Positions 34,801-55,310 of a stretch of DNA of 64,000 bases are shown piece after piece. The notes under the pieces were generated by a model that saw only the letters and a list, made by a program, of their open reading frames with translations, searched no databases and had not been told where the DNA came from. The stretch comes from Alphaproteobacteria bacterium (GTDB taxonomy: Bacteria; Pseudomonadota; Alphaproteobacteria; Micavibrionales; Micavibrionaceae): NCBI GenBank assembly GCA_030427385.1, contig JAUHWR010000001.1, positions 1,980,042-2,044,041 on the forward strand. The letters are read 5' to 3'. The position numbers and the translations under genes are program-made. The first letter of the stretch is position 1. Every line of letters begins with the position of its first letter.

Positions 34801-36536
34801 TAAAAGGCCTGCCCGATGCTGATGTAGAATTGGTAGCCTTGATCGAGGTCATCTTTTTGGGTGAGCGGGACGGCAACATCAAAGCGAATGGGGCCAAAAT
34901 CAGTGTAATAACGCACGCCAACGCCCGCGCCGATATAGGTGCCGCCCTTTAGGTCAGGAAAGGCGCTGTCGGAGACGCCGCCCGCATCGACAAATACCGC
35001 TCCGCCAAAGCTGTTATTGAATTTCAGGCGCAGTTCGGTGGTGGTTTCAATGATCGAGCGCCCGCCGGAGGGATCGTTTTGTGCATCGATTGGGCCGGCT
35101 TCCTGATAGCCATAGCCGCGGATGGAACCGCCGCCGCCCGCGTAAAAACGCTGTGAGGCGGGGATATCCTGGGTTTCCGTTCCCAAGATCGAGCCAATTG
35201 AGGCGCGGAGCGCAATCACGCTATCGAATAATGATTTACCAAGACCGATATAGGTCGTGCCGGTGGCGCGGGTTTTGACGAACGGCGCCGTCGTGCCAAT
35301 CGCATCAATAAACGGCGCGGCAAGTAGGCGCAGGGTATAGCCCTTTTTCGGGTTCAGGACATCATCGCGGCTGTCATAATTTAGCTTGGCAGGAAAGGAA
35401 ACAAGCGCGTAATTATTAGTGCTCTCGCCTTCTTCAGTGATTTGCAGCAGGTTTAACCCCACACCGAGACTGGCGCTCCAGAAGCGGGAGAGTTCACGTT
35501 CAATGGCGGCGCTGGCATTAATCCCAAGCTCATCATAGGCATCGGTTTCTTCGCGTTGTAAGGAGGAGGTAAAGCTGAAGCTTTGTTTATCGGTTAGGAA
35601 GAACGGTTTCTTAAAATCAAGGCCGACTTTTTGCAAAATGCCGGAAATTTGGGTGGAAACCGATAGCTCCTCGCCCGAGCCAAAGAAATTACGATGCAGC
35701 CATTCGGCCAGAACGCCCGGCCCTTCGGAGGTGCTGTAATTTGCACCGAGGCGGACTTTGCGCGGGGCGCGTTCCTTTAATTCCATGGCAACGGGGACAA
35801 GTCCATCTGCCGGAACATCTTCGGGCAGGGTGACGTTGATCGTGCTGATGAGGCCGGTTTTGAGCAGGGCGTTTTTGGTATCTTCCAGCTCGGTGGCTTT
35901 CCAGCAATCGCCATTATGATATTTGATGAATTTTTGTAAATAATCCTGATCTATATTTGGCGCGCCGGTAAGAGTTGTGGCCCCGAACTTTGCCTGATCG
36001 CTGGCGGTGACATCAAAAAAGACATCTGCCATATGCGCGCTTTGATCGAGAAAAACACGGTTTTTAATGGCAAGCTTATAAAAGCAGTTATCGTCAGATA
36101 CAGTTGTGATGATTTTTTTCTGGGCGCTTAAGACATCCCTGGCCATTAGCGGCGAGCCGGGCGCGAGTTTGAGCGGCGGGGCGGGGCTGTAGCCCGTGAC
36201 ATCAATCAGCGAAATTGTATAAAGCGGACCGGGGGTGATGAGATAGGTATCCGGCGTTGCGGGATCATTTGTGACTTTGGGGTTATAATAGCCGAGCGCC
36301 TTGGCAGCCTTTTTTAATTGTGCCTTAATCGTCGCGGGGTAGGGGGCGGGATCATCCTTATCACGATCATTAAAGGCGGGAAGGACTTTATCTTCGATAT
36401 AGCTTTTGAGGGCGGGGGTATCCTCCAGACCGCTGACCGCGATTTTGGCGAAGGCGGGAGACAAGCACAAGCATAGCGCCGCCGCAATAACAGCGGCAGG
36501 GACAACGCGCAAGGATATCAAATTCGAACGGATCAT
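34800..36536 (-). CDS. tamA: Translocation and assembly module protein TamA (Omp85 family)
   Basis: The 578-residue outer-membrane protein has a signal peptide (VIAAALCLCLSPAFA), a POTRA region (about 30-240) and a C-terminal 16-strand barrel of the Omp85 family. The barrel contains the conserved RFYAGGGGSIRGYGYQEAGP (lid-lock RGY motif), and the protein ends in Phe. It forms a complex with TamB, encoded immediately downstream. It precedes the export-related block, which may be more than coincidence. Confidence 0.93.
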   Translation of the reverse strand: MIRSNLISLRVVPAAVIAAALCLCLSPAFAKIAVSGLEDTPALKSYIEDKVLPAFNDRDKDDPAPYPATIKAQLKKAAKALGYYNPKVTNDPATPDTYLITPGPLYTISLIDVTGYSPAPPLKLAPGSPLMARDVLSAQKKIITTVSDDNCFYKLAIKNRVFLDQSAHMADVFFDVTASDQAKFGATTLTGAPNIDQDYLQKFIKYHNGDCWKATELEDTKNALLKTGLISTINVTLPEDVPADGLVPVAMELKERAPRKVRLGANYSTSEGPGVLAEWLHRNFFGSGEELSVSTQISGILQKVGLDFKKPFFLTDKQSFSFTSSLQREETDAYDELGINASAAIERELSRFWSASLGVGLNLLQITEEGESTNNYALVSFPAKLNYDSRDDVLNPKKGYTLRLLAAPFIDAIGTTAPFVKTRATGTTYIGLGKSLFDSVIALRASIGSILGTETQDIPASQRFYAGGGGSIRGYGYQEAGPIDAQNDPSGGRSIIETTTELRLKFNNSFGGAVFVDAGGVSDSAFPDLKGGTYIGAGVGVRYYTDFGPIRFDVAVPLTQKDDLDQGYQFYISIGQAF

Positions 36537-36642: not shown

Positions 36643-37947
36643 TTAAGGTGTGATTAGCCCCATATTTGCTGCGTTCAATAAACCGAGATTAGCCGCAAGG
36701 AGATAGTTGGAGAGCTCACCTTGATATTTTGTGCCAACCAGAGCGGTTTGAGAAGTAATGATGTCATTACTGGCATCCAGAATATCCAGTACGGTACGCT
36801 GGCCAAGTTTGGCTTCCTCCTCCACGCCATGCATGGTGCTTTCGGCGGCGGTGATTTCAATCATGCGGTATTCTTCCTCATCGGCGGCGCTGGTTAAGAT
36901 GCGGTAATTACGTAGAACATCTTGGCGGATTTGACGCTGTAGATCTTCGGCCTCATAGGTGCTGCGCTTGGCGCTATGTTTTGCTTGGCGCAGACGGGAG
37001 CGAGTTGTGCCCGCCTGATAGAGAGGGATAACAGCGCGCAATCCCAGTGTTTCGACGGCGCTGCTGGTGATAATGCCGGGTTGGGGGTCGTATGATTTAT
37101 TATAAGCCGCATAGGCAGACAGGCGGGGCAGTAATTCGCGAAAGACGCTATCGATGCCATGTTCGGCGGCATTTTGTTCATAGCGGGCAATCCAAAGATC
37201 GGGGTTTTGCGAGTCTGCTGCGGCTAATAATTCATCAATTCCATCCGGAAATTGAAAATCCAGCATGGGGACGGATGGTACGTTATCGGCGGATAGACCC
37301 GTGATTTGTTCAAATTCTGCCATGCTGATATCCATGGCGCGTTTGGCATTAATAACGGCGCTGTCGGCGCGGGCAAGGCGGCCTTTGGCTTGATCGACAT
37401 CGGTAATTGTTAATTCACCGCCGTCAAAACGCGCGCGGGCGCCATTACGCTGGCCTTGGATATTTTCCTGATTTTTCAGGCGCAGATTATATAGTTGTAC
37501 ATCGCGTTTGACATTCAACATGGCGCGGATTGCCTCCAGCAAGATATCCTGTTCGGCTTGGTGTAGATAGGCTTCGCCGGCATTGATCAGGGCGCGGGCG
37601 CGGCGCGTTTCGGCAAATGTTTTGCCGCCCTGCCAGATGGGTTGATCGAGAGTTACGCTATAATCCTTTGTCGTGGCACCATCGCCGCCGCCAAAATTAC
37701 TATTATCAATATCGGTGGTAAAAATACCGGCTTCGGCGCCGAGTGTGGGACGCCATCCGGAGGTTGCCTGCGGGTATAGTTCTTTTGTTTCCGCCAGTTT
37801 TTCACGGGCTGCATTTAAACCGGGGTGGGTATGATAGACATGGCGCAGTACCTGGAAAAAATTTTGGTGGTCTGGCTGTTCCTCTGCGGCATGGAGGTGA
37901 GTGGGGGATAGAAGTAAAAAAGAAAGTAGTAAAATACGAAGAATCAT
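36643..37947 (-). CDS. TolC-family outer-membrane efflux/secretion channel
   Basis: The 434-residue protein begins with a signal peptide (ILRILLLSFLLLSPTHLHA). The start at 37947 has GAGGTT five bases upstream. Two repeats of the outer-membrane efflux fold include ATSGWRPTLGAEAGI, LDQPIWQGGKTFAETRRAR and QAGTTRSRLRQAKHSAKRS, with the expected coiled-coil helices. It lacks a long C-terminal extension. Its position beside the ABC/HlyD genes suggests it is the outer-membrane component of that type I system. It is transcribed away from them. Confidence 0.9.
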   Translation of the reverse strand: MILRILLLSFLLLSPTHLHAAEEQPDHQNFFQVLRHVYHTHPGLNAAREKLAETKELYPQATSGWRPTLGAEAGIFTTDIDNSNFGGGDGATTKDYSVTLDQPIWQGGKTFAETRRARALINAGEAYLHQAEQDILLEAIRAMLNVKRDVQLYNLRLKNQENIQGQRNGARARFDGGELTITDVDQAKGRLARADSAVINAKRAMDISMAEFEQITGLSADNVPSVPMLDFQFPDGIDELLAAADSQNPDLWIARYEQNAAEHGIDSVFRELLPRLSAYAAYNKSYDPQPGIITSSAVETLGLRAVIPLYQAGTTRSRLRQAKHSAKRSTYEAEDLQRQIRQDVLRNYRILTSAADEEEYRMIEITAAESTMHGVEEEAKLGQRTVLDILDASNDIITSQTALVGTKYQGELSNYLLAANLGLLNAANMGLITP

Positions 37948-38063
37948 AGCAACCTCAAATTGATTAATGTCATCATTCGAGATAATCAAACTATAAGTTA
38001 ATATACAACTATAAATGTATATTTATACACAATGCGAATAATTATATACAATTGTATGTGTAA

Positions 38064-38786
38064 TTATATGGTCATTTGGCCGTCATGACCGCGATCAAGC
38101 ATATAGCCGATGCAACGAATGGTTCGTATGATTTGTGGACAGGTGGCATCATCCCCCAATTTTTTGCGTAATCTGGTGATTTTGACATCAATGGCCCGCG
38201 GGGTCGGGATGTAATTATCTTCGCGAATTGATTCGCATAAATCCTCTCGCCGTACCGGCTCCCCCAAATTTTTATATAGGGCTTCGATGAGTAGATATTC
38301 ACGCATCGTCAAGTCAATCGGCTGGTTTTCGCGGTCAAGTAATTGGTAGCGCTCCGGGTCTAGAGTCATGCCGTGGAAGCTGAAATTTTGAGGCTCCGGA
38401 TGATTATTTTGCCATGTGTCATTGGCTTGAAAGCGGCGTAGATTGGCGCGTATGCGGGCATTGACATCCTGAACATCGAACGGTTTGCAGATATAATCAT
38501 CCGCGCCGAAATCAAGGCATCCCGTTTGTTTTTTCATGCATGTTTCCCCGCTGATGATAATAAGAGGTGCATTGGTTTGCAGGCGCAGGTCAGGAATAAA
38601 ATTTTCAGCAGATCCATCAGGTAAATGTAAATCGAGAAGAACCAAATCAATGGGATGTTGGCTTAAGACATCCATCATGCGCTTTCCGTTGGCGGCTTCG
38701 ATAACAAGGAATCCTTCTTCTTCCAAGTTATCTTTCAGGATTGTACGGACAATTTTATCGTCGTCAACGACCAGCAGGGTTTGCAT
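38064..38786 (-). CDS. OmpR-family response regulator
   Basis: The 240-residue protein has a receiver domain with the phosphoacceptor D52 (LVLLDLHLPDGSAEN), the acidic pocket DDD at residues 8-10 and the conserved Lys in DDYICKPFDV. A winged-helix DNA-binding domain of OmpR type follows (about 140-235), with REYLLIEALYKNLGEPVRRE and VKITRLRKKLGDD. It is divergent from the secretion operon, and GAAA repeats at helical spacing lie between them, making it the likely direct regulator. No kinase is adjacent, although the hybrid kinase at 48646 could be its partner. Confidence 0.92.
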   Translation of the reverse strand: MQTLLVVDDDKIVRTILKDNLEEEGFLVIEAANGKRMMDVLSQHPIDLVLLDLHLPDGSAENFIPDLRLQTNAPLIIISGETCMKKQTGCLDFGADDYICKPFDVQDVNARIRANLRRFQANDTWQNNHPEPQNFSFHGMTLDPERYQLLDRENQPIDLTMREYLLIEALYKNLGEPVRREDLCESIREDNYIPTPRAIDVKITRLRKKLGDDATCPQIIRTIRCIGYMLDRGHDGQMTI

Positions 38787-38803
38787 ATAAGTACACTCTA
38801 AAG

Positions 38804-38842
38804 TTGAAACAAGATGAAATAAAACGAAACACTATTGAAACA
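38804..38842. promoter_or_regulatory. Phased GAAA repeats in divergent promoter, candidate regulator binding site
   Basis: GAAA occurs at 38806, 38816, 38826 and 38837, giving spacings of 10, 10 and 11 bases. Three copies read GAAAC and one GAAAT. Repeats on one helical face are typical for tandem OmpR-family dimers. The site lies between the OmpR-type regulator gene and the repeat-protein operon. Confidence 0.5.
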
Positions 38843-38917
38843 TAAAATTTATATTTAAACAATCTATAATTGATATCATAGTAATTCAAGCCAATCAATT
38901 ACATTCAGGAGGGCGGC

Positions 38918-41455
38918 ATGGAAGAAAAGATAGAAACGAATCAAGTCACATCAAAAATTGAAAATGGTCAGGAATTATCCGATCTGGTTTTTGTCCCTGT
39001 ATCCAAGTTGGATGCTGATCAATATATGGTGAGCGATCTGGACGGTGTGACCGAGAGTGTCTTCGGATCCGGCAATATGGGATATGCCAGTCTGCAAGCC
39101 GCGCAAACAAATGGGGCTTTTCAAAAATTTCAAAGTGATATCACAGAAGGCATGGGCGATGATGCAGTGCAGAGCGGTAATGTTCAAACGGCCAAAATGC
39201 CATCATTATCATCATTCAGTTCAGAAATATCGGGGTTATCCAATATCCCTGCTGATGTTGGGACAAGTGTTCCTGAAGGTGGCGCGCAGGATCCTTTATC
39301 GAATAAAGACGGTTCAGCAGGCGTGACCAATGCAGCGGTCAGTTCGGTCAGCGCATCAGAATTATCATCAAATGCAGGAAATTTCAGCCCGAGCGGGTCT
39401 GGGTTAAGTTTATCGGAAACAGGGGGGAGTACGACAAATAACAGCACGTCTTCGACAAGTTCAACAACGAATACGATCACACATAATACACAGAATAATT
39501 ACACCTATAACAATACCTATAATGATGGTGACGTAACTAATAATTATTATGATAACAGCATTAACATTTTGAATGATTTTGATCTGGATTTATTGAATGT
39601 GAATATTCTGGTCGATCAGGTTTTTACAAACGTCAATACCACGATTGAAACGCTATTAAATTCGGTCGGGGATGTTACCGGCAAATTATTATTCATTCTG
39701 AATAACTTGCAAAATGCAACCGGTGATACATTGAATATTGTCACCACGATTACGGCGGATTTGCTGGAGTCAGTTACGAATAATCTGGAAGTTTTGCTGC
39801 AAAGTGTGACTGAAACTCTGGGTGATAATCTGGAGACTGTTACCAATAACATTCAAAATATTCTGGATTTAGATATCATAAATAATATCGATATCATCGA
39901 TACGGTGGGCGATACCATCGGGCATTTGGGCGGCGCAGTTCATAATTTAAAACTTGTGATTGGTGATGTTAAAAACGTGATCACGGATTTGGATGTGACA
40001 AATGTGGCGGGCGATGCGCTGACATTAATTGATACGAAGCTATCCCTATTGGAAGTTGTTGTTGATCAGACAATTTTGGTTGCGGATAACGTGCTGAATG
40101 ATTTGGGTCTTGATTTATTCGGAGACGGAAACGGCGATGGGGATATCGGATTAGGTTTGGACCTTGATTTAGCGGGGCAGGGCATTTTTGATGTGCCATT
40201 GGATGTTGTCATTGATCCGATTGAGGATTTAGCCGGAGATATCGATCTGGATTTAAATATAGGATTGGATTTATTCGGTACGGATAATGTTGATAATGAT
40301 GCAGGTGATCAGGATCTGACGTTACTGGCGGATGTTGATTTATTAGATGACAATATTGTTGATCTTGCCGAGGCGGTGGAGTTAGACCCGGTTGAGGCTA
40401 TAGTCGGGGATATAGATATTGATTTAACCGATGCGGTGAATATCCTTGGTGATCAGGCAGGCGGATTATTGGATCAGGAAGACGGCGGATCAGGCGGCGG
40501 AATTCTGGCCCAAGTTGGTGATGTGGTTGCCGATATCGCCGATGCCGTTTTACCCGATATTGAAGATGGTCTGTTGGAAGATGCCGGATTGGGCGCAATT
40601 GGCGATCTTATCGGCGGTGATTTGCTGGGCGGCGGCGATGATGGTGATCATGATATCGGCGCGGGATTGGACGTCGATTTGGTTGATCATGATCTTGTTG
40701 ATGTGCCTTTGGATGTTGCCATTGATCCGGTTGAAGATTTAGTGGGTGATATTGATCTGGATTTGAATGTCGGCATTGATGTCTTTGGTACGGATGATAT
40801 CGATAATGATGCCGGTGATCAGGATGTAACGTTATTGGCGGATGTGGATATTCTTGATGATGATATTATCGCATTGGCAGATGGGTTGAATTTGGATCCG
40901 GTGGAGGCCATTACGGGTGACATAGATGTGGATTTAACCGATGCGGTGAATATCCTTGGTGATCAGGCAGATGGATTATTAGATCATGAAGATGGCGGAT
41001 CGGATGGCGGTTTGCTGGCAGATGTCGGTGATATCGTTGCCGACGTAGTCGATGCCGTTCTGCCCGATATTGGTGGCGGATTACTTGGCGGCGCGGATGA
41101 TGGCATCTTGGGCGGTGATGAGGCATTAAATGCAGACTCGGTTGAAGATTTGCTGCAAGAAATTGATCTGGGGCTTGAGCCGGTCATGGATATTTTAGAT
41201 TTGGGTCAAGTTGGCGGTGATGATGCCGATGGCGGATTACTGGGCGGTGATGATGGCGGTGTGGTCAATTGGACCGATACCATTATTACCGAAGGGATCG
41301 GAGTCTTTGATGATCTGAATAGCGGCCTTGGAGCAGGCGGCGGTATTTTACCGGAACCTGTCGGAAGTGTGGCAGAGGGGCTGGGCGCGTTAGATATTAC
41401 GGGTGATCATGGCGGCGGCGGTGGCGGCGGCATATTCGGAGGATTATTCGGATGA
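38918..41455 (+). CDS. Large Asp/Leu-rich repeat protein, probable type I secretion substrate
   Basis: The 845-residue protein has no signal peptide. The N-terminal part is Ser/Asn/Thr-rich and ends in a spacer full of Asn and Tyr (about 170-215). Helical segments with the pattern LLESVTNNLEVLLQSVTETL cover about 220-400. Two tandem 170-residue acidic repeats follow (residues 409-578 and 579-735). The C-terminus is Gly-rich (GGGGGGGIFGGLFG). No Cys is present. The first ABC gene overlaps its stop by four bases, and a strong AGGAGG precedes ATG 38918. Substrates of type I systems are usually encoded beside their transporter, lack signal peptides and are acidic, so secretion by the downstream system is the best reading. 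A surface adhesin or matrix role is inferred. Confidence 0.75.
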   Translation: MEEKIETNQVTSKIENGQELSDLVFVPVSKLDADQYMVSDLDGVTESVFGSGNMGYASLQAAQTNGAFQKFQSDITEGMGDDAVQSGNVQTAKMPSLSSFSSEISGLSNIPADVGTSVPEGGAQDPLSNKDGSAGVTNAAVSSVSASELSSNAGNFSPSGSGLSLSETGGSTTNNSTSSTSSTTNTITHNTQNNYTYNNTYNDGDVTNNYYDNSINILNDFDLDLLNVNILVDQVFTNVNTTIETLLNSVGDVTGKLLFILNNLQNATGDTLNIVTTITADLLESVTNNLEVLLQSVTETLGDNLETVTNNIQNILDLDIINNIDIIDTVGDTIGHLGGAVHNLKLVIGDVKNVITDLDVTNVAGDALTLIDTKLSLLEVVVDQTILVADNVLNDLGLDLFGDGNGDGDIGLGLDLDLAGQGIFDVPLDVVIDPIEDLAGDIDLDLNIGLDLFGTDNVDNDAGDQDLTLLADVDLLDDNIVDLAEAVELDPVEAIVGDIDIDLTDAVNILGDQAGGLLDQEDGGSGGGILAQVGDVVADIADAVLPDIEDGLLEDAGLGAIGDLIGGDLLGGGDDGDHDIGAGLDVDLVDHDLVDVPLDVAIDPVEDLVGDIDLDLNVGIDVFGTDDIDNDAGDQDVTLLADVDILDDDIIALADGLNLDPVEAITGDIDVDLTDAVNILGDQADGLLDHEDGGSDGGLLADVGDIVADVVDAVLPDIGGGLLGGADDGILGGDEALNADSVEDLLQEIDLGLEPVMDILDLGQVGGDDADGGLLGGDDGGVVNWTDTIITEGIGVFDDLNSGLGAGGGILPEPVGSVAEGLGALDITGDHGGGGGGGIFGGLFG
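40142..41105 (+). repeat. Two tandem long repeats in the Asp/Leu-rich protein gene
   Basis: The unit starting at 40142 recurs at 40652, a period of 510 bases (170 codons). Both units share runs such as DIDLDLN, NDAGDQD, LTDAVNILGDQA and AVLPDI at equivalent places. The second unit is slightly shorter at its end. Confidence 0.8.
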
Positions 41456-43191
41456 TGAGTACGGCAGGGGCATTATTTACAGACACATTCGCGCACAAAA
41501 AAGACGATATTTTACAACCGGACGGATTTAAGCAAGATACGGGATCGTTATTATTATCTACATTTGTGATTAATATTCTCTCATTGGCATTGCCGGTGAT
41601 GACATTACAGATTTATGATCGTGTGTTGCCGAATGAGGGGACATGGACCTTACCGGTTTTAATTATCGGGGTCTGTTTGGCGATTGTTCTGGAGGCGATG
41701 CTGCGTTTATGTCGGCAATATATCACCAGTCGCGCCGGTGCCAAATATGAGCATTTAACAGCGTGCCGCGCGATGGATAAAGTGTTGAATGCCGATTTAT
41801 CCAAAACCATTGATTACGGTATCGGCGAGCATTTGCACCGCATGGGATCGGTGGGCAAGGTAAAGGATTTTTATAATGGTCAGGCCTTAGTCACGTTGGC
41901 GGAGCTGGCGTTTATTCCGGTGTTTTTGGGTTTGATTTATTATATTGCGGCGCCGTTAATATTGGTGCCCATTACGATTTTAAGTATTTTTACCGCCCTG
42001 TCATTTTGGGGGGGATATAGATTACGTCATGCCTTGCAGCGCCGCGAAAAAGCCGATGATCACCGTTTTAATTTCCTGATTGAATCCTTAAAGGGTGTGC
42101 ATACTCTTAAGGCCTTTTCCTTAGAGAAATTTTTCGAGCGGCGTTATGAAGCTTTGGAGGAGACATCAACTTATGCCAATTATCGCGTGACCGAGGAAAC
42201 GGCAGGAATTTTTAATAACGGGGCGATTTTCTCGCATTTAATGGTTACGAGCGTGATTAGCGTGGGGGCGTGGTGCGTGTTAAGCGGATATGTCACAACG
42301 GGCGGATTGATTGCCACCCTTTTATTATCAGGGCGTATGATGCAGCCCGTTCAAAAGGCGCTGGGGTTATGGGCGCGTTATCAGGATTATGCCCTAGCCC
42401 GCGCACATTTAAGCGGGATTTTATTAACGCCGCAAAATGAAAACGAATATGTAGAAGAGGCACCGCAAGTATATCCGGAAGGACGATTAAAGATAACGGA
42501 TATGTCGTTTAAGTACCAAAAAGACGAGCATAACTTTTTGGAAAAAATTGACTTAAGTTTGAAATATGGCGATACGATCTTAATATCCGGCGCGCAGGGG
42601 GCGGGAAAATCAACATTGTTAAATTTGATTTCGGGAATATACCCCCCTGCCAGCGGGGAAATTATGATTGATGGGCAGAGATTGCAGTCTTTCTCTCAGA
42701 ATCAATTTATCAAGCATGTTGGTTATATCCGATCCGAGCCAATGATTTTTCGCGGTACGATCCGCGATAATGTGACCGCCTTTGGGTTGATACCCGAAGC
42801 GCAGGTGCAAGAGGTTGCCAGATTATTAGAGATTGATCGCGATATTGCCAAATTACCGGGCGGGTTTGATACGTTCCTGAGCGGGAATAATACTGATTCC
42901 ATCCCATCCGGCTTGAAACAACGGCTTTCGATTTTACGCGTTCTGGCAACCAAGCCGAAATTGATCTTATTTGATAATGCCGATCGCGCCTTGGATAAGG
43001 AAGGATATGCCATGATTTATAGCTTTTTGGCACGTCTTAAGGGCAAAGCCACCATGATTTTAGTGTCTGAAGATCGCAATATTTGTGATTTGGCGGAGCG
43101 TCATTATGTGATGAGAGACGGGAAATTAATACCGGATTCTCAGCAAGAAAAACAAGGAAATATCAAGCCATATCAGGAGTTAAGATTATGA
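41452..43191 (+). CDS. Type I secretion ABC protein with degenerate nucleotide-binding domain
   Basis: The 579-residue protein has six membrane segments (about 30-300, beginning LLLSTFVINILSLALPVM with the type I landmark LQIYDRVLPNEG) followed by an ATPase domain. Walker A (SGAQGAGKSTLL) is intact. The signature that should read LSGGQ is SIPSGLKQRLS. Walker B ends LILFDNADRALD, where the catalytic Glu is replaced by Asn. The switch His region reads ILVSEDR instead of AHR. The Q-loop Gln is also missing (GYIRSEP). These changes suggest it hydrolyses ATP poorly or not at all. It overlaps the next ABC gene by four bases, and the pair probably forms a heterodimer. Confidence 0.9.
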   Translation: MMSTAGALFTDTFAHKKDDILQPDGFKQDTGSLLLSTFVINILSLALPVMTLQIYDRVLPNEGTWTLPVLIIGVCLAIVLEAMLRLCRQYITSRAGAKYEHLTACRAMDKVLNADLSKTIDYGIGEHLHRMGSVGKVKDFYNGQALVTLAELAFIPVFLGLIYYIAAPLILVPITILSIFTALSFWGGYRLRHALQRREKADDHRFNFLIESLKGVHTLKAFSLEKFFERRYEALEETSTYANYRVTEETAGIFNNGAIFSHLMVTSVISVGAWCVLSGYVTTGGLIATLLLSGRMMQPVQKALGLWARYQDYALARAHLSGILLTPQNENEYVEEAPQVYPEGRLKITDMSFKYQKDEHNFLEKIDLSLKYGDTILISGAQGAGKSTLLNLISGIYPPASGEIMIDGQRLQSFSQNQFIKHVGYIRSEPMIFRGTIRDNVTAFGLIPEAQVQEVARLLEIDRDIAKLPGGFDTFLSGNNTDSIPSGLKQRLSILRVLATKPKLILFDNADRALDKEGYAMIYSFLARLKGKATMILVSEDRNICDLAERHYVMRDGKLIPDSQQEKQGNIKPYQELRL

Positions 43192-45416
43192 GTAGCCCCG
43201 CCGCAAACGCCGCGCAAGATGACAAAGCATTTGAGCGCTTTGTCGATAGTCAGCCAATTTTAAATATGCTGGCCTTATTAAGCAGAACTGGGCGTAGCCA
43301 TTTTGAAGAAGAAGGCGCATGGGAAGTTTGTTTATGCGCGATGGTCATGAAATTAGAGCCGCAATGCACCGTACAAAGAATTTTGGAGGCATTGCCATAT
43401 CATAATGACAAGATGGATGCGGAGGATTTCTTAAATACCATGGCGCATTTAGGTTATTTTTGCCGTAAGGCGGAAAGCGCGTTGGAATATATTGATGAGC
43501 GTTTATTGCCCGCTGTCTTTATTCCCGATTACGGCCATCCATCCATTATTATCGGACGTGAAGCCGATGGACGACATAGATTTTATGATCCTATCTCCAA
43601 GTTAGTGTCCAATGTTGCGCCTAGCACTGAAAATAGCGGACATATCTGGTTTTTTCAAAAGTATGACGAGCAAAAATCATCTCTGTCTAAATTTATGCGA
43701 AAAGGCAGTGGGTATAGCTGGTTTTATGCATTGCTGCGCCGCTTTAATGGCACATTCGCACAGGTCATGACGGCGGGTTTCATTTTGAACATTATTGCGC
43801 TGATTACGCCGTTATTTATTATGCTGGTTTATGATCGCGTTATTGCGGCGGGCAGCATGGAAACATTACCGATGTTGGCGGTGGGCGCATTTATTGCGAT
43901 TGGCTTTGAGTGGAAATTGCGCGGCATACGATCACGCGGTCTGTCATGGTTGGCAGGGCGGTTGGATAATATTGTCGGTAATCGCATTTTAGCGCATTTG
44001 ATTGGTTTGTCCCCCGATACGATTGAAAAAGCATCCGTATCGGCGCAGATTGCGCGGATTAAAACATTTGAATCGGTGCGCGATTTTTTTAGCGGATCCG
44101 TCTTTTTATCCGTCTTGGAAGCGCCGTTTGTCTTTATTGCAATTGGGGCGGTGATGATGATTGCGGGGCCGTTGGTTTATGTGCCGCTATCGGTGTCGGT
44201 GGCGTATATCGCGCTGTTTATCTATATCCGTCAAAAGGTGAAAGTTTATATTCGCCTGGCGGCGAAAAACAGCTCGGCACGTCAACAATTTACAATTGAG
44301 ACGTTTGAGAAGTTGCACGGTATTCGCGGGCAGGGTTTGACCGGAAAATGGCAACAAAAATTCCGCCATTTATCAGGGCAGGAAATGATGTCGCATTTTG
44401 TTCTGGGGTGGTATGGCATTTTGGCGGAAACGTGCGCGCATACCTTGACGGTTCTGGCCGCCGTGATGACGGTGGGGTTTGGCGTGCATCTGGTATGGGC
44501 CGGCGCAATGAGCGCGGGCGCGCTGGTGGCCAGTATGATTTTGGTGTGGCGTATTTTGACCCCGTTCTATGCGATATGTACGATGATCCCGCGTCTTGAG
44601 CAGCTGCGGAATAGTATTCATCAGGTGAACCAGTTAATGGATATTGAAACCGAAGCCGAAGCCGCGCGTAGTTTTTCCAGATTGCCGCGTTTAAGCGGGG
44701 CGCTGTCATTTCAAAATGTGTCATTTAAATATCAGCCTGACCAAGATGTTATTTTTTCCAATTTAACATTCGAGGCCAAGGCCGGGGATTTGGTGGCAAT
44801 TACCGGCGGTAATGGATCGGGCAAAGCCACAATTTTGAAATTATTGAAATCATTGCATCAACCGGAAACAGGCACCATACGATTGGACGGATTTGATATT
44901 CGCCAGTTGGATGCGCCGCATTTACGCCGCCAGATTGCCTATGTGCCGAAAACGCCGCATTTTTTCCACGGATCGATTTTGGAAAATTTACGCTTTTCCA
45001 ATCCGCTAGCGAGCCGTGAGGATATTGAAAAAGCGCTGGATTTGGCGAATATTTTGGAGGCGGTGCAGGAATTGCCAAAGGGGTTGGATACGGTGATCGG
45101 GTATCATAGTGATATTAAGCTGACATCCAATATGCAGGCATGTTTATCGCTGGCGCGGGCATATTTACATCCGGCGGCGTTATTACTGATTGATGAATTA
45201 CCCAATAAATTATTATCGGGGCGCACAGGGCAAAATTTAAAAGATTATCTGGCACGTGCCAAAGGCAAACGCACCATTTTATTCTGCACGTATCGTGAGG
45301 ATTTTATGAAATTGGCGGATACGATTGTATGGCTGAAGGAGCAGGAAAAGCCCCTTTGCGTTACCCGCGCCGATTTTTTTGATAACATTAAAACACAATT
45401 AAAGGTTGTATCATGA
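43188..45416 (+). CDS. Type I secretion ABC protein with C39-like N-terminal domain and degenerate ATPase
   Basis: This 742-residue protein has an N-terminal C39-peptidase-like domain (about 20-160). The catalytic Cys is not recognisable, although the later HPSIIIGREADGRHRFYDP is, as in LapB-type transporters that only bind substrate. Membrane segments fill about 185-470 (IALITPLFIMLVYDRVIAAG). The ATPase domain has Walker A GGNGSGKATIL, with Ala where Ser or Thr binds Mg. The signature is LTSNMQACLSLARA instead of LSGGQ, and TYR replaces the switch-His motif. Walker B (LLLIDEL) keeps Asp-Glu. The protein complements its partner only partly. It overlaps the adaptor gene by four bases. Confidence 0.9.
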   Translation: MSSPAANAAQDDKAFERFVDSQPILNMLALLSRTGRSHFEEEGAWEVCLCAMVMKLEPQCTVQRILEALPYHNDKMDAEDFLNTMAHLGYFCRKAESALEYIDERLLPAVFIPDYGHPSIIIGREADGRHRFYDPISKLVSNVAPSTENSGHIWFFQKYDEQKSSLSKFMRKGSGYSWFYALLRRFNGTFAQVMTAGFILNIIALITPLFIMLVYDRVIAAGSMETLPMLAVGAFIAIGFEWKLRGIRSRGLSWLAGRLDNIVGNRILAHLIGLSPDTIEKASVSAQIARIKTFESVRDFFSGSVFLSVLEAPFVFIAIGAVMMIAGPLVYVPLSVSVAYIALFIYIRQKVKVYIRLAAKNSSARQQFTIETFEKLHGIRGQGLTGKWQQKFRHLSGQEMMSHFVLGWYGILAETCAHTLTVLAAVMTVGFGVHLVWAGAMSAGALVASMILVWRILTPFYAICTMIPRLEQLRNSIHQVNQLMDIETEAEAARSFSRLPRLSGALSFQNVSFKYQPDQDVIFSNLTFEAKAGDLVAITGGNGSGKATILKLLKSLHQPETGTIRLDGFDIRQLDAPHLRRQIAYVPKTPHFFHGSILENLRFSNPLASREDIEKALDLANILEAVQELPKGLDTVIGYHSDIKLTSNMQACLSLARAYLHPAALLLIDELPNKLLSGRTGQNLKDYLARAKGKRTILFCTYREDFMKLADTIVWLKEQEKPLCVTRADFFDNIKTQLKVVS

Positions 45417-46753
45417 TTTGGAATTTCCTGAAAAATAAAAGTGAAAAAAGAGAAAAGCAAACGCGCTATCTCTCGCAAGCGATCCAGTTAGAGGAAGCGG
45501 TTAATCCGCATATTATCCGCGCAACGATGGGGATGATATGTTTGGCAATTCTGGTATTTTTGGGATGGGCGTCGGTGACATCGATTAGCGAAGTTGCCCG
45601 CACGCCGGGGGAGGTGGTTCCCGCCGGTTATCAGCAAACGGTGCAGCATTTGGAAGGCGGCATGGTCGAAGCCATTCATGTTCATGAGGGCGATATTGTC
45701 GCCGAGGGACAGGTGTTAATGACCCTGAGCGCCGATGGGATCGGAGAAGATTTGGCGCGGGCGCAGCAAAAGCAAATGGCGCTGGCGATACAGATTGAGC
45801 GTCAACGTGCGTTTATTGAAGGGCGGGAGCCGGATTTTTCACAGTTTGAAATTCGTGACAGCGCGAATTTAACTGATCACCAAAAATCATTTGAAGGTAT
45901 GCGCAGCGCACGTGAGGGAGAAGGCAGCGTTGTTGAAAATCAGATCAGGGAAAAACAACAGAGTTTGCTATCCCTGCAGAATGATTTAAAGACGGCGGAG
46001 CTGAATTTGAAGATTGCGCGAGAGATGTATAACAGGCGCGCGGCTTTGAATAAAAAGGGTTATGCGTCGGATATGCAATTATTAAAAGATGAACAGCGCG
46101 TCAATGAAATTAAGGGGGAAATTGGGCGGCTGCAAAAAAACATTGATATTGCCCATACGCAGATCGGCGAATTTAAAAGCCGGGCAACGTCTCTTACGGC
46201 GCAGCATATTGATCAATCACATGAGAAATTAGACGCAGTTTTAGCCGAAGCAGCGCAAAATGAAAAAATCATTGAAAAATTAGAACAACGGATTGATAAG
46301 CTGCGTATTAAAGCGCCGACTGAAGGGTTAATCAAAGGATTTGAGATTAATACCGTCGGGGCAATTATCCAGCCGGCACAAAAAATTATGGAGATTATTC
46401 CGATTGCCGAAACATTTGAGATAGAGGTGAAAATATCGCCGCAGGATATTGGGCATGTAAAGGTCGGGCAAAGTGTACAGACCAAATTCGCGACCTATGA
46501 TTTTTCGCGTTATGGGTTTGTAAAGGGCAGTTTAAAGCGCATTTCCGCAACCACTTTTACGGGGGAACAAGGCGAGCGTTATTATAAAGGGCACATTTTA
46601 TTGGATAAAAATTATGTCGGTCATGACCATGCCAATCAAATTATTCCGGGCATGACAGTTATGGCGGATGTCATTACGGGGCAGAAAACAATATTGCAAT
46701 ATTTATTAAAGCCCATCCATCTATCGTTGAAATCATCATTCGCAGAAAGGTAA
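45413..46753 (+). CDS. HlyD-family membrane fusion protein (type I secretion adaptor)
   Basis: The 446-residue protein has one N-terminal membrane anchor (MGMICLAILVFLGWASV). A lipoyl-like half-motif (PGEVVPAGYQQTVQHLEGGM) and long periplasmic coiled-coil hairpins (about 120-300) follow. The second lipoyl half (LRIKAPTEGLIKGFEI) and the beta domain end the protein. HlyD proteins connect the inner-membrane ABC unit to the TolC channel. It completes the type I system with the two ABC genes upstream and TolC at 36643. Confidence 0.95.
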   Translation: MIWNFLKNKSEKREKQTRYLSQAIQLEEAVNPHIIRATMGMICLAILVFLGWASVTSISEVARTPGEVVPAGYQQTVQHLEGGMVEAIHVHEGDIVAEGQVLMTLSADGIGEDLARAQQKQMALAIQIERQRAFIEGREPDFSQFEIRDSANLTDHQKSFEGMRSAREGEGSVVENQIREKQQSLLSLQNDLKTAELNLKIAREMYNRRAALNKKGYASDMQLLKDEQRVNEIKGEIGRLQKNIDIAHTQIGEFKSRATSLTAQHIDQSHEKLDAVLAEAAQNEKIIEKLEQRIDKLRIKAPTEGLIKGFEINTVGAIIQPAQKIMEIIPIAETFEIEVKISPQDIGHVKVGQSVQTKFATYDFSRYGFVKGSLKRISATTFTGEQGERYYKGHILLDKNYVGHDHANQIIPGMTVMADVITGQKTILQYLLKPIHLSLKSSFAER

Positions 46754-46760
46754 GCACATT

Positions 46761-47720
46761 ATGTTAGCCGCACCATTAGAAGATAATATCGATTATACGT
46801 TACTGAAAAAAAACGACATGATCCGCATTTTGGCCGTAGAGGATGATCTGTTATCCATGCAATTTTTAGAGGCGCAGATCAAAGAATTGGGTCATGAGAT
46901 GATTCAGGCGGAAAACGGACAAAATGCAATTGATATTATGCTGCAGCAAAAAAATAATATCGATGTGGTTTTAATGGATCGTGAAATGCCGGTCATGGAC
47001 GGCTTAAGTGCGGTTCGTAATATAAAAGCGAATAAGGAATTGCGAAATATTCCGATTATTATGGTTACCGGCGCAGATAGTCAGGAGGAATTAAAAGAGG
47101 GGTTGGATGCGGGGGTGTTTTATTATCTGACAAAACCTGTCGATGCCAAAATGTTGCAGTCAGTTTTATCCGCCGCGGTCAGGCAAGCCAAGCAAGAAAG
47201 AACATTAGCGGAAGAGCTTGGGAAACATCGGACCAGTTTTCATTTGATTGAAACATGTAAATTCAGTTTCAGAACATTAGGGGAGGCGGAGAGTTTAGCG
47301 GCGTTTATTGCCAATTGTTTCCCCAATCCCCAGCGTGTTTTAACAGGATTAGGCGCGTTATTAATCAATGCGGTAGAGCATGGAAATTTGGGAATAACCT
47401 ATGAGGAGAAAACCGAAATGATCGCCGCCGGAACATGGCGTGCGGAAGTTAAAAGATTGCAAAAGTTACCGCAGCATCAAAACAAATCCGCACAAGTTAC
47501 CATTGCGAAAAAGGAGGATGGTATTTATGTGGTGATTGAAGATGAGGGCGCGGGATTTGTCTGGCAGGATTATATCACGATTGACCCCGCGCGTGCGGGC
47601 GATAATCATGGGCGCGGGATCGCACAGGCAAAGTCGGTCAGTTTTGATCGTTTAAATTACAATGAACAAGGCAATAAAGTCGTCGGCTTTGTTGGTCATG
47701 GCAAGCAAATGGAATGGTAA
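46761..47720 (+). CDS. Receiver domain fused to RsbW-like ATPase domain
   Basis: The 319-residue protein has an N-terminal receiver domain (about 22-145) with the phosphoacceptor Asp in VVLMDREMPVMDG and the conserved Lys in YYLTKPVDAKM. The C-terminal domain (about 170-315) is a HATPase_c_2 module of the RsbW/anti-sigma kind, recognisable from LGALLINAVEHGNLGIT (N-box) and VVIEDEGAGFVWQDY (G1 box) with NHGRGIAQAKSV. Such fusions link phosphorylation to partner-switch signalling. It starts seven bases after the adaptor gene stop. The target sigma-factor or anti-anti-sigma partner is not encoded nearby. Confidence 0.88.
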   Translation: MLAAPLEDNIDYTLLKKNDMIRILAVEDDLLSMQFLEAQIKELGHEMIQAENGQNAIDIMLQQKNNIDVVLMDREMPVMDGLSAVRNIKANKELRNIPIIMVTGADSQEELKEGLDAGVFYYLTKPVDAKMLQSVLSAAVRQAKQERTLAEELGKHRTSFHLIETCKFSFRTLGEAESLAAFIANCFPNPQRVLTGLGALLINAVEHGNLGITYEEKTEMIAAGTWRAEVKRLQKLPQHQNKSAQVTIAKKEDGIYVVIEDEGAGFVWQDYITIDPARAGDNHGRGIAQAKSVSFDRLNYNEQGNKVVGFVGHGKQMEW

Positions 47721-47741
47721 AAATATAAAGGAGTATTAAGT

Positions 47742-48644
47742 ATGATTGTTATTGCAAAAGATGCGGAACAAAAGTTTTGCGAAGAATTAAAGGGACAAAA
47801 ACAAGATTTATCGCAGATTAAATGCCTGCATGTTCAATTTTCAAGAACAGATGTGCCGCAAAAAGAGTTGTTTGATGAATTTTTACAGCTTTTGGAGAAA
47901 ATACCGGAATCATTTATGGCGGAAGTTTATATTTGCGCCGATCAGGATGTTTTCATTTTAATGCACGCATTTATGGAAGAGGCGTTTATGGAGGCGATTG
48001 ATACTTTGGAGCGTAAATTCGGTGGTAAAAGTGGGCGCTTTCCAAAGGAGTTATTTATCTTAGATCAGCATCATAAAACCCTGTATACAGTGGCGCAAAA
48101 AAAATATGTAGAGGTGCAGCAAAGACGGATGAGTGCGCAGGATTCGGCAAAAAAAAGTACGGTCGATCAAACCATTGAAAGCATTATGAAGCGGTTAGAA
48201 GTCGGGATGTTGGATACATTACAACGCCGCCGCGCAGACCGGCGCGACCCCGTGGTTTTGGTGGTTGAAGATGATCAGCTGTCGCGAACATTGGTCAGCA
48301 ATACGATACGCCAATCTTATCAAACTGTATGTGCGATTAATGGCGAGGAAGGTTTGAATGAATTTTTGGAACATGCGCCCGATGTGGTGTTTTTGGATAT
48401 CGGATTACCGGATATTAACGGGCATGAGGTGTTGGAATGTTTGTTCCAATTGGATCCCAATGTATATGTTATTATGTTTAGTGGGCGTAAAGATAAAGAA
48501 AATATAATGCGGGCGCTGCGTGCCGGCGCGCAGGGATTCATCGGCAAGCCATTCACGCGTGACAAATTATTCGAATATATCGGCCGCTCCGACTTTGTGA
48601 AAAAAAAGAAGCTTAAGATAGAGCCAACCACACAAGCGGTATAA
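47742..48644 (+). CDS. Response regulator with unrecognised N-terminal domain
   Basis: The 300-residue protein ends with a receiver domain (about 165-290). The acidic pocket is VVEDDQLS, the phosphoacceptor Asp lies in VVFLDIGLPDINGHE and the Lys in GFIGKPFTRDK. The N-terminal 140 residues are an alpha/beta region (CLHVQFSRTDVPQKELFDEF) without a recognised family. No DNA-binding output domain is present, so it probably works through protein contacts or in a phosphorelay with the hybrid kinase encoded immediately after it. AAAGGAG precedes ATG 47742. Confidence 0.85.
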   Translation: MIVIAKDAEQKFCEELKGQKQDLSQIKCLHVQFSRTDVPQKELFDEFLQLLEKIPESFMAEVYICADQDVFILMHAFMEEAFMEAIDTLERKFGGKSGRFPKELFILDQHHKTLYTVAQKKYVEVQQRRMSAQDSAKKSTVDQTIESIMKRLEVGMLDTLQRRRADRRDPVVLVVEDDQLSRTLVSNTIRQSYQTVCAINGEEGLNEFLEHAPDVVFLDIGLPDINGHEVLECLFQLDPNVYVIMFSGRKDKENIMRALRAGAQGFIGKPFTRDKLFEYIGRSDFVKKKKLKIEPTTQAV

Positions 48645-48645
48645 T

Positions 48646-50601
48646 ATGGGCGCATATTCTTTCATTATTATTTGTTGCCTGGCGGGTTTTATTTGTCTGG
48701 AAGGTGGTATGTATTTATTACGCCGCAGACAAAGACGCGCCATGCAGACAAAATTGGAATTGGCAAAGGAAGAAACGCGCGATATTGCCATGCTGTCTTT
48801 GAATAATCCGCAACCGATCATTCAGGTATCAGCCGCGGGCGAGATTTTATTTTCCAATCCGGCAGCGATTAAATTATTTCCCGATCTGGATGCGCGGCAA
48901 TTATCGCATCCGGTGATGGAACATATTCAGGCATGTTTTAGACAATTATTGCCATATCGGCGCGATGTCTATGTGAATGGACGGATTTATCAGCAATGTA
49001 TTTCTGCCGCCAAGATTAAAAATAAAGATGCCTTTATCATATATATGACTGATATCACCAGTTTAAAAACATATGAGGCAGATTTGGAAAAATCCAAAAA
49101 GCAGGCGGAAGAAAACAGAGTGATCGCCGAACAAGCCAATATGTCGCGTGGTCAGTTTTTGGCAAATATGTCCCATGAATTACGTACCCCCATGAACGGA
49201 ATCATCGGATTATCAGAGTTATTAACCAAGCGTGATTTGGCCGAAGATACAAAGTATATGGCGCGCGCCATTCATCAATCTGCGGCGGGATTATTGGTGA
49301 TATTGAATGATATTCTGGATTTTTCAAAAATAGAGGCAGGGGAGCTGCGGATTGAGCGCATTTCCTTTGCCCCGCGGGACATGATCGCACAGATTGAGGC
49401 GCTGCATAGAGCCGTTGCCGAAGAAAAGGGATTGGCATTTCATATCAAAATTGCCGAGGATGTCCCCGATATGTTATCCGGCGATCCGGCGCGGTTACAG
49501 CAAATTTTGAATAATTTGTTGAATAATGCGTTAAAATTTACGCATAGCGGGCATGTATCCATTACCGTCTCCGTTGAGGATGACCCAAAGGGAGAGGGAG
49601 CCTTTTTAAATTTAAGCGTAGAGGATAGTGGAATTGGCATTGCCAAAGATAAACAGGCCGGAGTCTTCGAAAAATTCCAGCAGGCAGAAGGATCAACCGC
49701 CCGCCAATATGGCGGAACCGGATTGGGGTTATCAATCACCCGTGATTTAGTCGAATTAATGCAAGGCGTTATCGGGATAGAGAGCCAAATGGGAGAAGGA
49801 ACACGATTTGATATCCGCATTCCAACCGCGGTGATACAGACAGAAAAGATGACACAGGATCAAGCGGAACAGGTCTGTGATCGTGGTTTGAATCATGGGG
49901 CAAAGATTTTGGTGGTGGATGATCATCCGGTGAATTTATTATATATGAAGCATGCCTTAATGGAGATGGGATTCAGCGATCCGGATGAGGCGGAGAGCGG
50001 CGTCATTGCCTTACGCTTATATCAAGAGAATGCGTATGATCTGATTTTTATGGATTGCCAGATGCCGGATATGGACGGGTTTGAAGCCACACAAAAAATT
50101 AGAGATTATGAAGTTCATAGCGAGCGTAAGACCCCCATTATCGCGCTGACTGCGGATGCGATGAAGGGCGCGGAAGAAAAATGCCGCAAGGCAGGGATGG
50201 ATGATTATTTAAGCAAGCCGGTTGCCCGCGCCGGATTGGTTAGTATTTTAAAGCAATGGTTGCCGCCCGCCGCCAATGATCAGCCGGTGAAAATAGCGGC
50301 ATTAGATGAATTTACGCAAGGGGACGCCGAGATGGAGCAGGAATTACTTCAGATCTTTCTTGATAACTTCCAAGTGGATTTGAGCGCACTTCATCAGGCG
50401 TATCAAAAGCAGGATTTTATATTATGGGATGAGGCGGCGCACAAGCTGTATGGAGCATGCGCGCATATGGGCATTGCGACTTTGGCTGATATTTGTAACA
50501 AAGCGCAATCATTGGAGACGGCAACGCCGGAAGTCGTCAAGCAATTGCATTTTGAAATTTTATCAGAAAGCCGCCGCGTGCGCGACCAATTGGCGGCCTG
50601 A
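48646..50601 (+). CDS. Hybrid sensor histidine kinase with receiver and Hpt domains
   Basis: The 651-residue kinase has one N-terminal membrane segment (AYSFIIICCLAGFICLEGG) and a PAS-like linker (about 45-140). The HisKA domain has its His in LANMSHELRTPMNGIIG. The ATPase domain has NNALKFTHSGHV, VEDSGIGIAKDK and YGGTGLGLSITRDL. A receiver domain follows (LIFMDCQMPDMDGFEA, Lys in DDYLSKPVAR). The C-terminal Hpt domain is marked by DEAAHKLYGACAHMG. The gene begins one base after the preceding stop, so it is part of the same operon. All catalytic sites look intact. It probably feeds the adjacent receivers or the OmpR regulator. Confidence 0.95.
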   Translation: MGAYSFIIICCLAGFICLEGGMYLLRRRQRRAMQTKLELAKEETRDIAMLSLNNPQPIIQVSAAGEILFSNPAAIKLFPDLDARQLSHPVMEHIQACFRQLLPYRRDVYVNGRIYQQCISAAKIKNKDAFIIYMTDITSLKTYEADLEKSKKQAEENRVIAEQANMSRGQFLANMSHELRTPMNGIIGLSELLTKRDLAEDTKYMARAIHQSAAGLLVILNDILDFSKIEAGELRIERISFAPRDMIAQIEALHRAVAEEKGLAFHIKIAEDVPDMLSGDPARLQQILNNLLNNALKFTHSGHVSITVSVEDDPKGEGAFLNLSVEDSGIGIAKDKQAGVFEKFQQAEGSTARQYGGTGLGLSITRDLVELMQGVIGIESQMGEGTRFDIRIPTAVIQTEKMTQDQAEQVCDRGLNHGAKILVVDDHPVNLLYMKHALMEMGFSDPDEAESGVIALRLYQENAYDLIFMDCQMPDMDGFEATQKIRDYEVHSERKTPIIALTADAMKGAEEKCRKAGMDDYLSKPVARAGLVSILKQWLPPAANDQPVKIAALDEFTQGDAEMEQELLQIFLDNFQVDLSALHQAYQKQDFILWDEAAHKLYGACAHMGIATLADICNKAQSLETATPEVVKQLHFEILSESRRVRDQLAA

Positions 50602-50706: not shown

Positions 50707-52041
50707 ATGACGTATATTATTCTTGAAAATACAATATGTGGTAATGCCGGTGATGGTTCCATTATGTTGGCAGCGGAGAAAATCCTGAAGGAGGCATGCG
50801 GGCAGGATGTTGAGGTTTTGATTTTCGATCATGACGCCAAAACATCACAGGATCTATATTTGGAACAAACGTTCCATCAAATGCAGAGCAAGAAATTATT
50901 ATCAGGCAGTACATTTTCAAATTTTAAGTTGAGATTGGCTTTGTCCTGTGCGAAGCGTAATTTTTGGGCGGGGGCGACCTTATTCGGCGGAAGCGTTTTA
51001 GCCAAAACATTGAAGCAATATAAAGGCGCGGCAATGGTGGTGACAACGGGCGGCGGGTATTTGAATGAAAATTTTAACCTTAATTACCGTATCAGGCAAT
51101 TTCAGGTGGATACATATCTGGGTAAGCCGCCGATCTTTTTCACCCAATCTTTGGGCCCGTTTCGTAAATTGGAAAATCGTAATGGATTAAAAACGGCATT
51201 GAATGCATCCCCGTTGATTTTACTACGTGATGAGCCATCAAAAAGTTATCTGAACGGATTGGTGGATCGCATGGAAAAATGCCATGTGGTATCGGAAAGC
51301 GCGTTTGCCCTGGCGGAAGTGGCGCGGATTGAGTCATTGATCCGGCAGAGCGATCCGTTGAAAATGGAGCGCATTGCCATTTCCGTGCGGGATTGGCCCT
51401 ATTTCAAAAGCCGTTCCAATAAACAAGGGCGCGAGATTTACCGTCAGGCGATTGCGTCCCTTGTTCAGAAATTAATACGCGATTATGAGGTTGAGGTGAC
51501 GTTTATTTCAACTTGTCAGGGTTTGGATCATTTTAAATATGATGATTCCAAGGTGGCGGTTGAAATATGCAAGTTATTGCCGCCGGAAATGATGTCGCAT
51601 ATTTCGATCATTAAAGAATTTCATCATCCGAGCGAAATTATGGATATTTTGCGGGAAATGGATTTTGTCCTTGCCACGCGCTTTCATATGATGGTGCTCG
51701 CGATGTGTGTTGGCACGCCGGTTATGCCGATTGCTTACGAATTTAAAACGGCTGAATTGGCGCGTCAAATTGGTATGAAAGATGTTTTATGTGACATTGA
51801 AAGCATCAATGCAGGCGATTTAATGGGAAAATGCGATATATACTTCCACAATATGGAGAGTTATCGCGATAAAATCCTTCATCATACATTGGAATTTCAT
51901 AAATCAGCGCTACAGGCCGTGCCGTTAATTCGGGAGGTGTATGAAGCCAGCGTTTTAAAACGAATTGCTCCGGAGCTGGATGAGGATACTGATGGTGAAT
52001 TTGATACCAAGTTAGATGATGTCTTTGATGATGAGATTTAA
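50707..52041 (+). CDS. Polysaccharide pyruvyl transferase family protein
   Basis: The 444-residue protein opens TYIILENTICGNAGDGSIML, the typical start of the CsaB/WcaK family that adds pyruvyl ketal groups to surface polysaccharides. Further family landmarks are VVTTGGGYLNENF, IFFTQSLGPF and the C-terminal DFVLATRFHMMVLAMCVGTP with an Arg-Phe-His triad. The last 25 residues are strongly acidic. It follows the kinase gene by 105 bases and has its own GAGGGAG site, so it may be a separate unit. It links the region to exopolysaccharide or cell-wall polymer modification. Confidence 0.85.
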   Translation: MTYIILENTICGNAGDGSIMLAAEKILKEACGQDVEVLIFDHDAKTSQDLYLEQTFHQMQSKKLLSGSTFSNFKLRLALSCAKRNFWAGATLFGGSVLAKTLKQYKGAAMVVTTGGGYLNENFNLNYRIRQFQVDTYLGKPPIFFTQSLGPFRKLENRNGLKTALNASPLILLRDEPSKSYLNGLVDRMEKCHVVSESAFALAEVARIESLIRQSDPLKMERIAISVRDWPYFKSRSNKQGREIYRQAIASLVQKLIRDYEVEVTFISTCQGLDHFKYDDSKVAVEICKLLPPEMMSHISIIKEFHHPSEIMDILREMDFVLATRFHMMVLAMCVGTPVMPIAYEFKTAELARQIGMKDVLCDIESINAGDLMGKCDIYFHNMESYRDKILHHTLEFHKSALQAVPLIREVYEASVLKRIAPELDEDTDGEFDTKLDDVFDDEI

Positions 52042-52342: not shown

Positions 52343-52374
52343 AGCCCCTGAATTTTGAAATAAGTTCAGGGGCT
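52343..52374 (+). terminator. Rho-independent terminator
   Basis: AGCCCCTGAA and TTCAGGGGCT form a 10-bp stem with a 12-base loop, followed by ATTATTTTG. It ends the transcript of the small membrane protein. Confidence 0.75.
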
Positions 52375-53859: not shown

Positions 53860-53868
53860 GTTTGCGAT

Positions 53869-55224: not shown

Positions 55225-55292
55225 ATTGCGCCTATTTTTTCATAAAATTTGCTCTGTATTCTTTATGTGATGTACTATCTTACGGATCGCAG

Positions 55293-55310
55293 CTTACATA
55301 AAACTTTACC
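55293..55310 (+). promoter_or_regulatory. Second 7-4-7 direct-repeat box upstream of the RTX gene
   Basis: CTTACAT AAAA CTTTACC lies 73 bases before the start of the beta-helix/RTX gene. It has the same half-sites, A-rich spacer and 11-base period as the box at 53041-53058, so the regulator at 53173 may also control this gene. Confidence 0.45.

Follow-up and report, generated by a model that had tools for sequence, protein, structure and literature searches.

A two-ABC type I secretion locus linked to its own putative phosphorelay

The window, by which we mean the whole 64,000-nucleotide stretch of DNA analysed here, carries a conserved set of exporter and signalling genes that we read as a dedicated type I secretion system with two ABC proteins and a phosphorelay of its own, the outputs of which would be two regulators, a receiver-HATPase protein and a divergently encoded OmpR-type protein; we give this reading a probability of about 0.5. 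Export is probably regulated together with sensing as a single unit, and control of transcription through both regulators is the most likely way in which the phosphorelay would act.

A divergent unit of secretion and signalling genes

Seven genes of the plus strand are arranged head to tail between positions 38918 and 50601 in the list of open reading frames of the window. In order, they encode a presumed exported substrate (gene 1, 38918-41455, 845 aa), an ABC exporter half without a C39-like domain (ABC1, 41452-43191), a second half with such a domain at its N-terminus (ABC2, 43188-45416), an HlyD periplasmic adaptor (45413-46753), the receiver-HATPase (46761-47720), a receiver protein (REC2, 47742-48644) and a hybrid histidine kinase with an Hpt domain (48646-50601). 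The spacings from gene 1 to the kinase gene are -4, -4, -4, +7, +21 and +1 bases, so that the layout proposed in the sequence-only reading, with 4-base overlaps or gaps of no more than 21 bases, is borne out, and the seven genes are presumably co-transcribed. The boundaries given to the unit placed these seven genes correctly but were too narrow, since two divergent genes of the minus strand belong to it too. The first, for an OmpR/PhoB-type response regulator (38064-38786; Response_reg and Trans_reg_C domains), starts 131 bases upstream of gene 1 and has no kinase gene adjoining it on its own strand; the second, which makes up the rest of this half of the divergent unit, encodes a TolC-type outer-membrane channel (36643-37989; TIGR01844, 266 bits against a cut-off of 225).

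Several observations concern the flanks. A polysaccharide pyruvyl transferase gene (50707-52041) starts 105 bases past the kinase gene and may lengthen the transcript; it is absent from the maps of the relatives' loci. The longest terminator-like stem of the region, of 13 pairs, lies beyond it at 52343-52374. In the same promoter and terminator scan, promoter-like matches were in excess across the whole region (67, against 37.8 in shuffles), and internal promoters are therefore not located by that scan. On the minus strand, upstream of the TolC gene, lie two genes (31687-36536) that we take to be TamB/TamA-like.

The intergenic region between the two half-operons (38787-38917) is a common divergent promoter region, and it holds four phased TGAAACA-like direct repeats (38805-38842, plus strand) with steps of 10, 10 and 11 bases, a predicted regulator site. 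Binding by OmpR/PhoB-type proteins fits repeat steps of about 10 bases, and the spacing of these direct repeats, close to one helical turn, is consistent with the predicted control by a regulator of this type; we infer that the divergent regulator is paired with the TGAAACA repeats. Because the motif was read off the window site itself, the following figures are descriptive: a repeat count as high occurred in 0 of 1000 dinucleotide shuffles, chains of at least three repeats in none of 200 simulated 64-kb strands, and the exact pair GAAACAN(3,4)TGAAACA only once in the 2.19-Mb genome, at the window promoter. Support that does not depend on the window site comes from the phased copies present in 7 of 10 other regions (L033, L034, L035, L157, L151, L155 and L048); none were found in the remaining three (L032, L037 and L038).

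Conservation of the linkage between exporter and signalling genes

In a sample of 142 genomes of the order we found, apart from the window itself, 34 places with a relative of the receiver-HATPase (E 5.1e-47 or better). A relative that is full-length or covers the HATPase half is present in the window genome and in 33 more, and the remaining listed matches concern the receiver part. The hlyD gene lies directly upstream in 28 of these 34 relatives, the exceptions being L042, L044, L051, L056, L057 and L058. Viewed from the exporter side, ABC1 relatives of at least 325 bits numbered 33, spread over 32 of the 142 genomes, the next match scoring 243 bits. In six of these loci the contig stops before hlyD is complete; where the downstream side is visible, the receiver-HATPase gene comes next in 23 of 27, and four loci have no HATPase gene (L151 in G030, L152 in G126, L153 in G091 and L154 in G089). 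A lack of conserved linkage, which the sequence-only reading had named as grounds for giving up the idea of coupling, is thus not the case, and the proposed coupling of export and signalling is real in so far as it means conserved linkage; that export also feeds back on gene expression, the other part of that claim, is conjecture. One of the exceptions deserves mention in its own right: L042 (G041:C204, 5257 bases) holds an OmpR-type regulator, receiver-HATPase and kinase together without exporter genes, and since L033 of the same genus has the full unit, this is either a natural loss or an assembly fault.

Altogether, and not counting the window, 41 of the fetched loci have the receiver-HATPase gene adjoining hlyD, mostly at a distance of 1-32 bases, which indicates that the arrangement is more than chance. 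The receiver-HATPase is the core signalling partner of the exporter. A divergent homologue of the OmpR-type regulator is present at 13 of 58 ABC1 loci, and a divergent TolC gene likewise at 13 of 58, all of the latter in the signalling-linked lineage. Beyond the order, among the best 80 of at least 399 relatives in a scan of named genomes, exporter-linked receiver-HATPases were found in Rhodobacter aestuarii DSM 19945, Aquimixticola soesokkakensis and Desulfogranum mediterraneum DSM 13871, as well as in metagenome-assembled genomes of Desulfobulbaceae, Gammaproteobacteria and Rickettsiales; the arrangement is thus seen in Rhodobacterales and Desulfobulbales too.

A class-wide sample of 385 genomes contained ABC1 relatives in 49 and receiver-HATPases in 20. 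Twenty of its 57 ABC1 places were fetched (L170 is absent from the locus map), and hlyD is followed by a receiver-HATPase gene in four of the 20 (L160, L161, L163 and L166) and by a hybrid kinase gene instead in three (L162, L164 and L165), with L167 cut by a contig end. In more distant class loci, several of them near RTX-like genes, neither a HATPase nor a kinase gene directly follows hlyD. By coordinate comparison, 6 of the 23 receiver-HATPase places in this sample adjoin this exporter and most do not.

The signalling genes might only share an operon promoter with the exporter and regulate unrelated processes, as their stand-alone relatives do. Stand-alone receiver-HATPases are indeed common, making up 70 of 112 rows of our tree, and a related protein, TciR, regulates a pigment (PMC12826045). 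Yet the adjacency has long been retained across phyla and the exporter-linked lineage is mostly separate from the stand-alone proteins, and we consider such plain co-inheritance unlikely. In the receiver-HATPase tree (112 rows, 42 of them exporter-linked) the label has to change 8 times, where shuffled labels average 33.8, and there is full support for a single set of 63 stand-alone rows. The ABC1 tree (60 rows, built by a quick method) joins all 34 receiver-HATPase-linked rows with the 4 kinase-only and 5 contig-cut ones in a linked set that has 98% SH-aLRT support, with 3 label changes. Sampling for the trees was seeded from the window family, and near copies help such clustering; seven loci from duplicate genomes (L072-L076, L080 and L136) were left out of both the trees and the residue censuses. 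Taken together, the two trees suggest that the linkage is old and was followed by few losses.

A receiver-HATPase related to LvrC and TciR

The receiver of this protein spans residues 23-135, and the match of the remainder to HATPase_c_2 is weak (19.9 bits, cut-off 27.4). We nevertheless hold the HATPase assignment to be secure because an AlphaFold model built from 35 aligned sequences (mean pLDDT 83.9, pTM 0.70) matches the Leptospira protein LvrC (9qih) over the whole chain, as its best solved fold match (E 9.2e-17). A profile search also finds 9qih (E 3.6e-26, positions 16-304), and PorX is a further fold match of the model. By its predicted fold, then, the window protein is a response regulator of the LvrC/TciR type, a receiver followed by an RsbW-like Bergerat domain; the high rmsd to 9qih suggests that the model places the two domains differently.

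All 36 exporter-linked rows with a receiver retain the phosphoacceptor aspartate, and N203, D261, G263, G265, F266, G284, R285 and G286 show no variation across 35 rows. Six relatives of the HATPase domain (L059-L064) have no receiver, which rules out phosphorylation as their sole input. The N-box glutamate, which is the catalytic residue of serine kinases of this fold, is replaced by alanine in the window protein (Ala199) and is retained in 67 of 70 stand-alone relatives versus 25 of 42 exporter-linked ones. With this glutamate lost and the nucleotide-binding residues invariant, a binding switch is likelier than a serine kinase.

The cassette had been described as containing a partner-switch module, and in the Rsb sense this description is not supported. 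In such a switch the HATPase domain would phosphorylate a STAS antagonist and otherwise sequester a sigma factor. The sole STAS domain of the genome is in a 496-residue transporter, which we take to be of the SulP type; STAS_2 and SpoIIE gave no match in the genome, which has no free STAS antagonist. An Rsb-type switch was rejected for these missing partners, and the alanine in the N-box further argues against it. What speaks for it is the RsbW/SpoIIAB-type fold, known through LvrC (PMC13269768), and we regard a classical partner switch as highly improbable. The preferred reading, control of transcription by the phosphorelay, would require another target for the receiver-HATPase, presumably a sigma factor or other regulator, and the genome has six matches to sigma-70 region 2 over the cut-off.

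We also note a locus elsewhere in the genome (G000:C1, 388723-390156) with receiver-bearing frames of 764 and 254 aa and, beside them on the opposite strand, a match to sigma-70 region 2, which presumably is a PhyR/EcfG stress-response cluster.

An exporter with degenerate ATPase sites

The gene set of type I secretion is complete, with an ABC exporter and HlyD (TIGR01843, 355 bits, cut-off 208.65) in the seven-gene half and TolC in the divergent half. Both ABC proteins have membrane and ATPase domains and are 23% identical to each other; they probably act as a heterodimer. Neither reaches the cut-off of the T1SS ABC subfamily models TIGR03375, TIGR01846 and TIGR01842, the best of which, TIGR03375, gives 353 bits for ABC1 and 442 bits for ABC2 (cut-off 693.1); we assume that the N-terminal domain of ABC2 is C39-like from the T1SS models that it matched.

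Canonical catalytic residues are missing from both ATPase domains. In ABC1 the Walker B glutamate is replaced by asparagine and the H-loop histidine by glutamate, and in ABC2 the Walker B glutamate is kept and the H-loop histidine is replaced by tyrosine. Across the relatives (ABC rows below 290 bits or 450 residues being left out of this census, as of the ABC1 tree), the ABC1 Walker B glutamate is present in 3 of 43 proteins of the linked lineage versus 10 of 16 unlinked ones, the ABC1 H-loop histidine in 0 of 43 versus 11 of 16, and the ABC2 H-loop histidine in 10 of 42 versus 11 of 15. The signature motifs of both halves are degenerate in linked and unlinked groups alike. In the ABC1 proteins of three loci (L041, L045 and L055) even the Walker A pattern is lost, so that this exporter half probably cannot bind ATP in the usual way.

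These losses bear on a different way of using the signalling genes, in which the phosphorylated receiver-HATPase would act directly on HlyD or on the ABC heterodimer as a post-translational gate, without any sigma factor. The receiver-HATPase gene sits directly behind hlyD and moves with the exporter, the genome has no STAS or SpoIIE partner, the N-box glutamate is less often kept in the exporter-linked proteins, and the linked exporters have lost catalytic residues that their unlinked relatives mostly keep. On the other hand, the kinase-only loci L162, L164 and L165 have no HATPase gene and yet fall inside the degenerate transporter lineage, which means that degeneracy of the transporter is not tied to the HATPase gene, and shared ancestry confounds the comparison of residue losses. 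Such a gate therefore appears to us improbable, if worth keeping in mind, and its more specific form, in which an ATP-binding response regulator would license a heterodimer with weakened ATPase sites so that the phosphorelay opened or closed secretion without transcription, is less probable still.

REC2, the hybrid kinase and the proposed phosphorelay

The hybrid kinase combines HisKA, HATPase, receiver and Hpt domains (all by Pfam) in a single protein, as expected of a phosphorelay kinase. In many relatives the gene that comes straight after that of the receiver-HATPase or HlyD encodes a hybrid kinase of larger size (about 740 to 1220 aa), with an Hpt domain in the three that were checked by Pfam; the window has no kinase of this larger kind. 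REC2 consists of an N-terminal domain of about 160 residues (47742-48230) and a receiver in its C-terminal half. A model of the protein (mean pLDDT 82.5, pTM 0.54) has receivers among its listed PDB matches. The N-terminal domain is conserved in 8 aligned proteins and showed no significant family or fold match, a sequence search giving nothing useful and Pfam only a match under the cut-off.

Full-length REC2 is encoded in 8 relative loci, with the hybrid kinase next to it, and at L151 a REC2-like receiver gene and a hybrid kinase gene follow hlyD without a receiver-HATPase. The three signalling proteins, taken as a fixed cassette in the sequence-only reading, are thus better seen as a receiver-HATPase core and an accessory pair of REC2 and hybrid kinase.

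In the mechanism that we favour, ABC1-ABC2 and HlyD, together with the divergently encoded TolC, would export the hyperacidic product of gene 1. The hybrid kinase would autophosphorylate and pass the phosphate through its receiver to its Hpt domain, and from there to REC2, the receiver-HATPase and the divergent OmpR-type regulator, the direction of transfer among these neighbouring receivers being our supposition. The OmpR-type regulator would bind the TGAAACA repeats and set the transcription of both half-operons, and the receiver-HATPase would behave as a nucleotide-bound binding protein of the LvrC/TciR type under control by phosphorylation, with the state of its receiver deciding whether a sigma factor or other regulator is held back.

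The presumed substrate

Gene 1 encodes a hyperacidic protein (20.1% D/E, 1.2% K/R) without cysteine. L31, A33, D34, D40, D42, G43, E46, S51, G52 and N53 are invariant in 17 aligned members of its family, as are G838 and F840 at the C-terminus. The protein matched no Pfam or NCBIfam family, and a search for solved relatives gave none of use. We considered an RTX identity and rejected it, as there was no Pfam or NCBIfam match to the calcium-binding Gly/Asp-rich repeats. As judged from its sequence, the family is an unannotated hyperacidic family of presumed substrates; adjacency and co-conservation suggest that the gene 1 product is exported by the ABC1-ABC2 machine, after which it probably stays on or near the cell surface. 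At L046, L049, L050, L077 and other signalling-linked loci, the upstream ORF is acidic without the substrate motifs, or none was found.

Relation to known systems

A non-exhaustive literature search found no standard system with this layout, in agreement with the earlier reading. One parallel is the type IX secretion system, which is wired to its own two-component system through PorX, PorY and SigP, although both the machine and the output domain differ from those of the window. In Vibrio fischeri, SypE and SypF, the latter a hybrid kinase, are signalling proteins of similar make-up, with an RsbW-like domain and a receiver, that serve biofilm formation. SypE differs from the window protein in having an additional PP2C domain and the STAS protein SypA as its target (PMC12826045), and the window genome lacks the PP2C (SpoIIE-type) and STAS partners of that system; the syp genes direct the synthesis of a polysaccharide (PMC4517449, abstract).

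As to the exporter, the MARTX machinery of RtxB, RtxE and RtxD with TolC likewise has four parts and two ABC proteins, while the presumed substrate of the window is neither MARTX nor RTX by family search, and the available text of PMC3034196 describes no signalling genes with MARTX-type secretion. As to the receiver-HATPase, LvrC (SenB) has the same architecture of a receiver and an anti-sigma-type Bergerat domain and is phosphorylated by a histidine kinase, with no link to secretion described in the accessible portion of PMC13269768. The window protein has lost the N-box glutamate. TciR of Vogesella indigofera also combines a receiver and an RsbW-like domain, has a kinase partner and works in a host without an RsbV homologue, and the part of PMC12826045 at hand describes no link to an exporter. 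The same two papers, dated 2025 and 2026, as far as seen leave the direct target of TciR and LvrC open (PMC12826045; PMC13269768).

Receiver-RsbW fusions are widespread but rarely studied, and the exporter-linked lineage offers a concrete, testable output for them. In addition, the locus brings to light a family of hyperacidic presumed substrates that lacks annotation, as well as a two-ABC exporter whose ATPase sites are unusual; the host group probably includes the Micavibrio predators, for which surface proteins matter in prey contact.

Finally, a second regulator-kinase pair lies further along the window (53173-57497), followed by a 709-aa protein with RTX-type matches and a T1SS_VCA0849 domain over the cut-off; this protein is another likely type I substrate encoded beside signalling genes.
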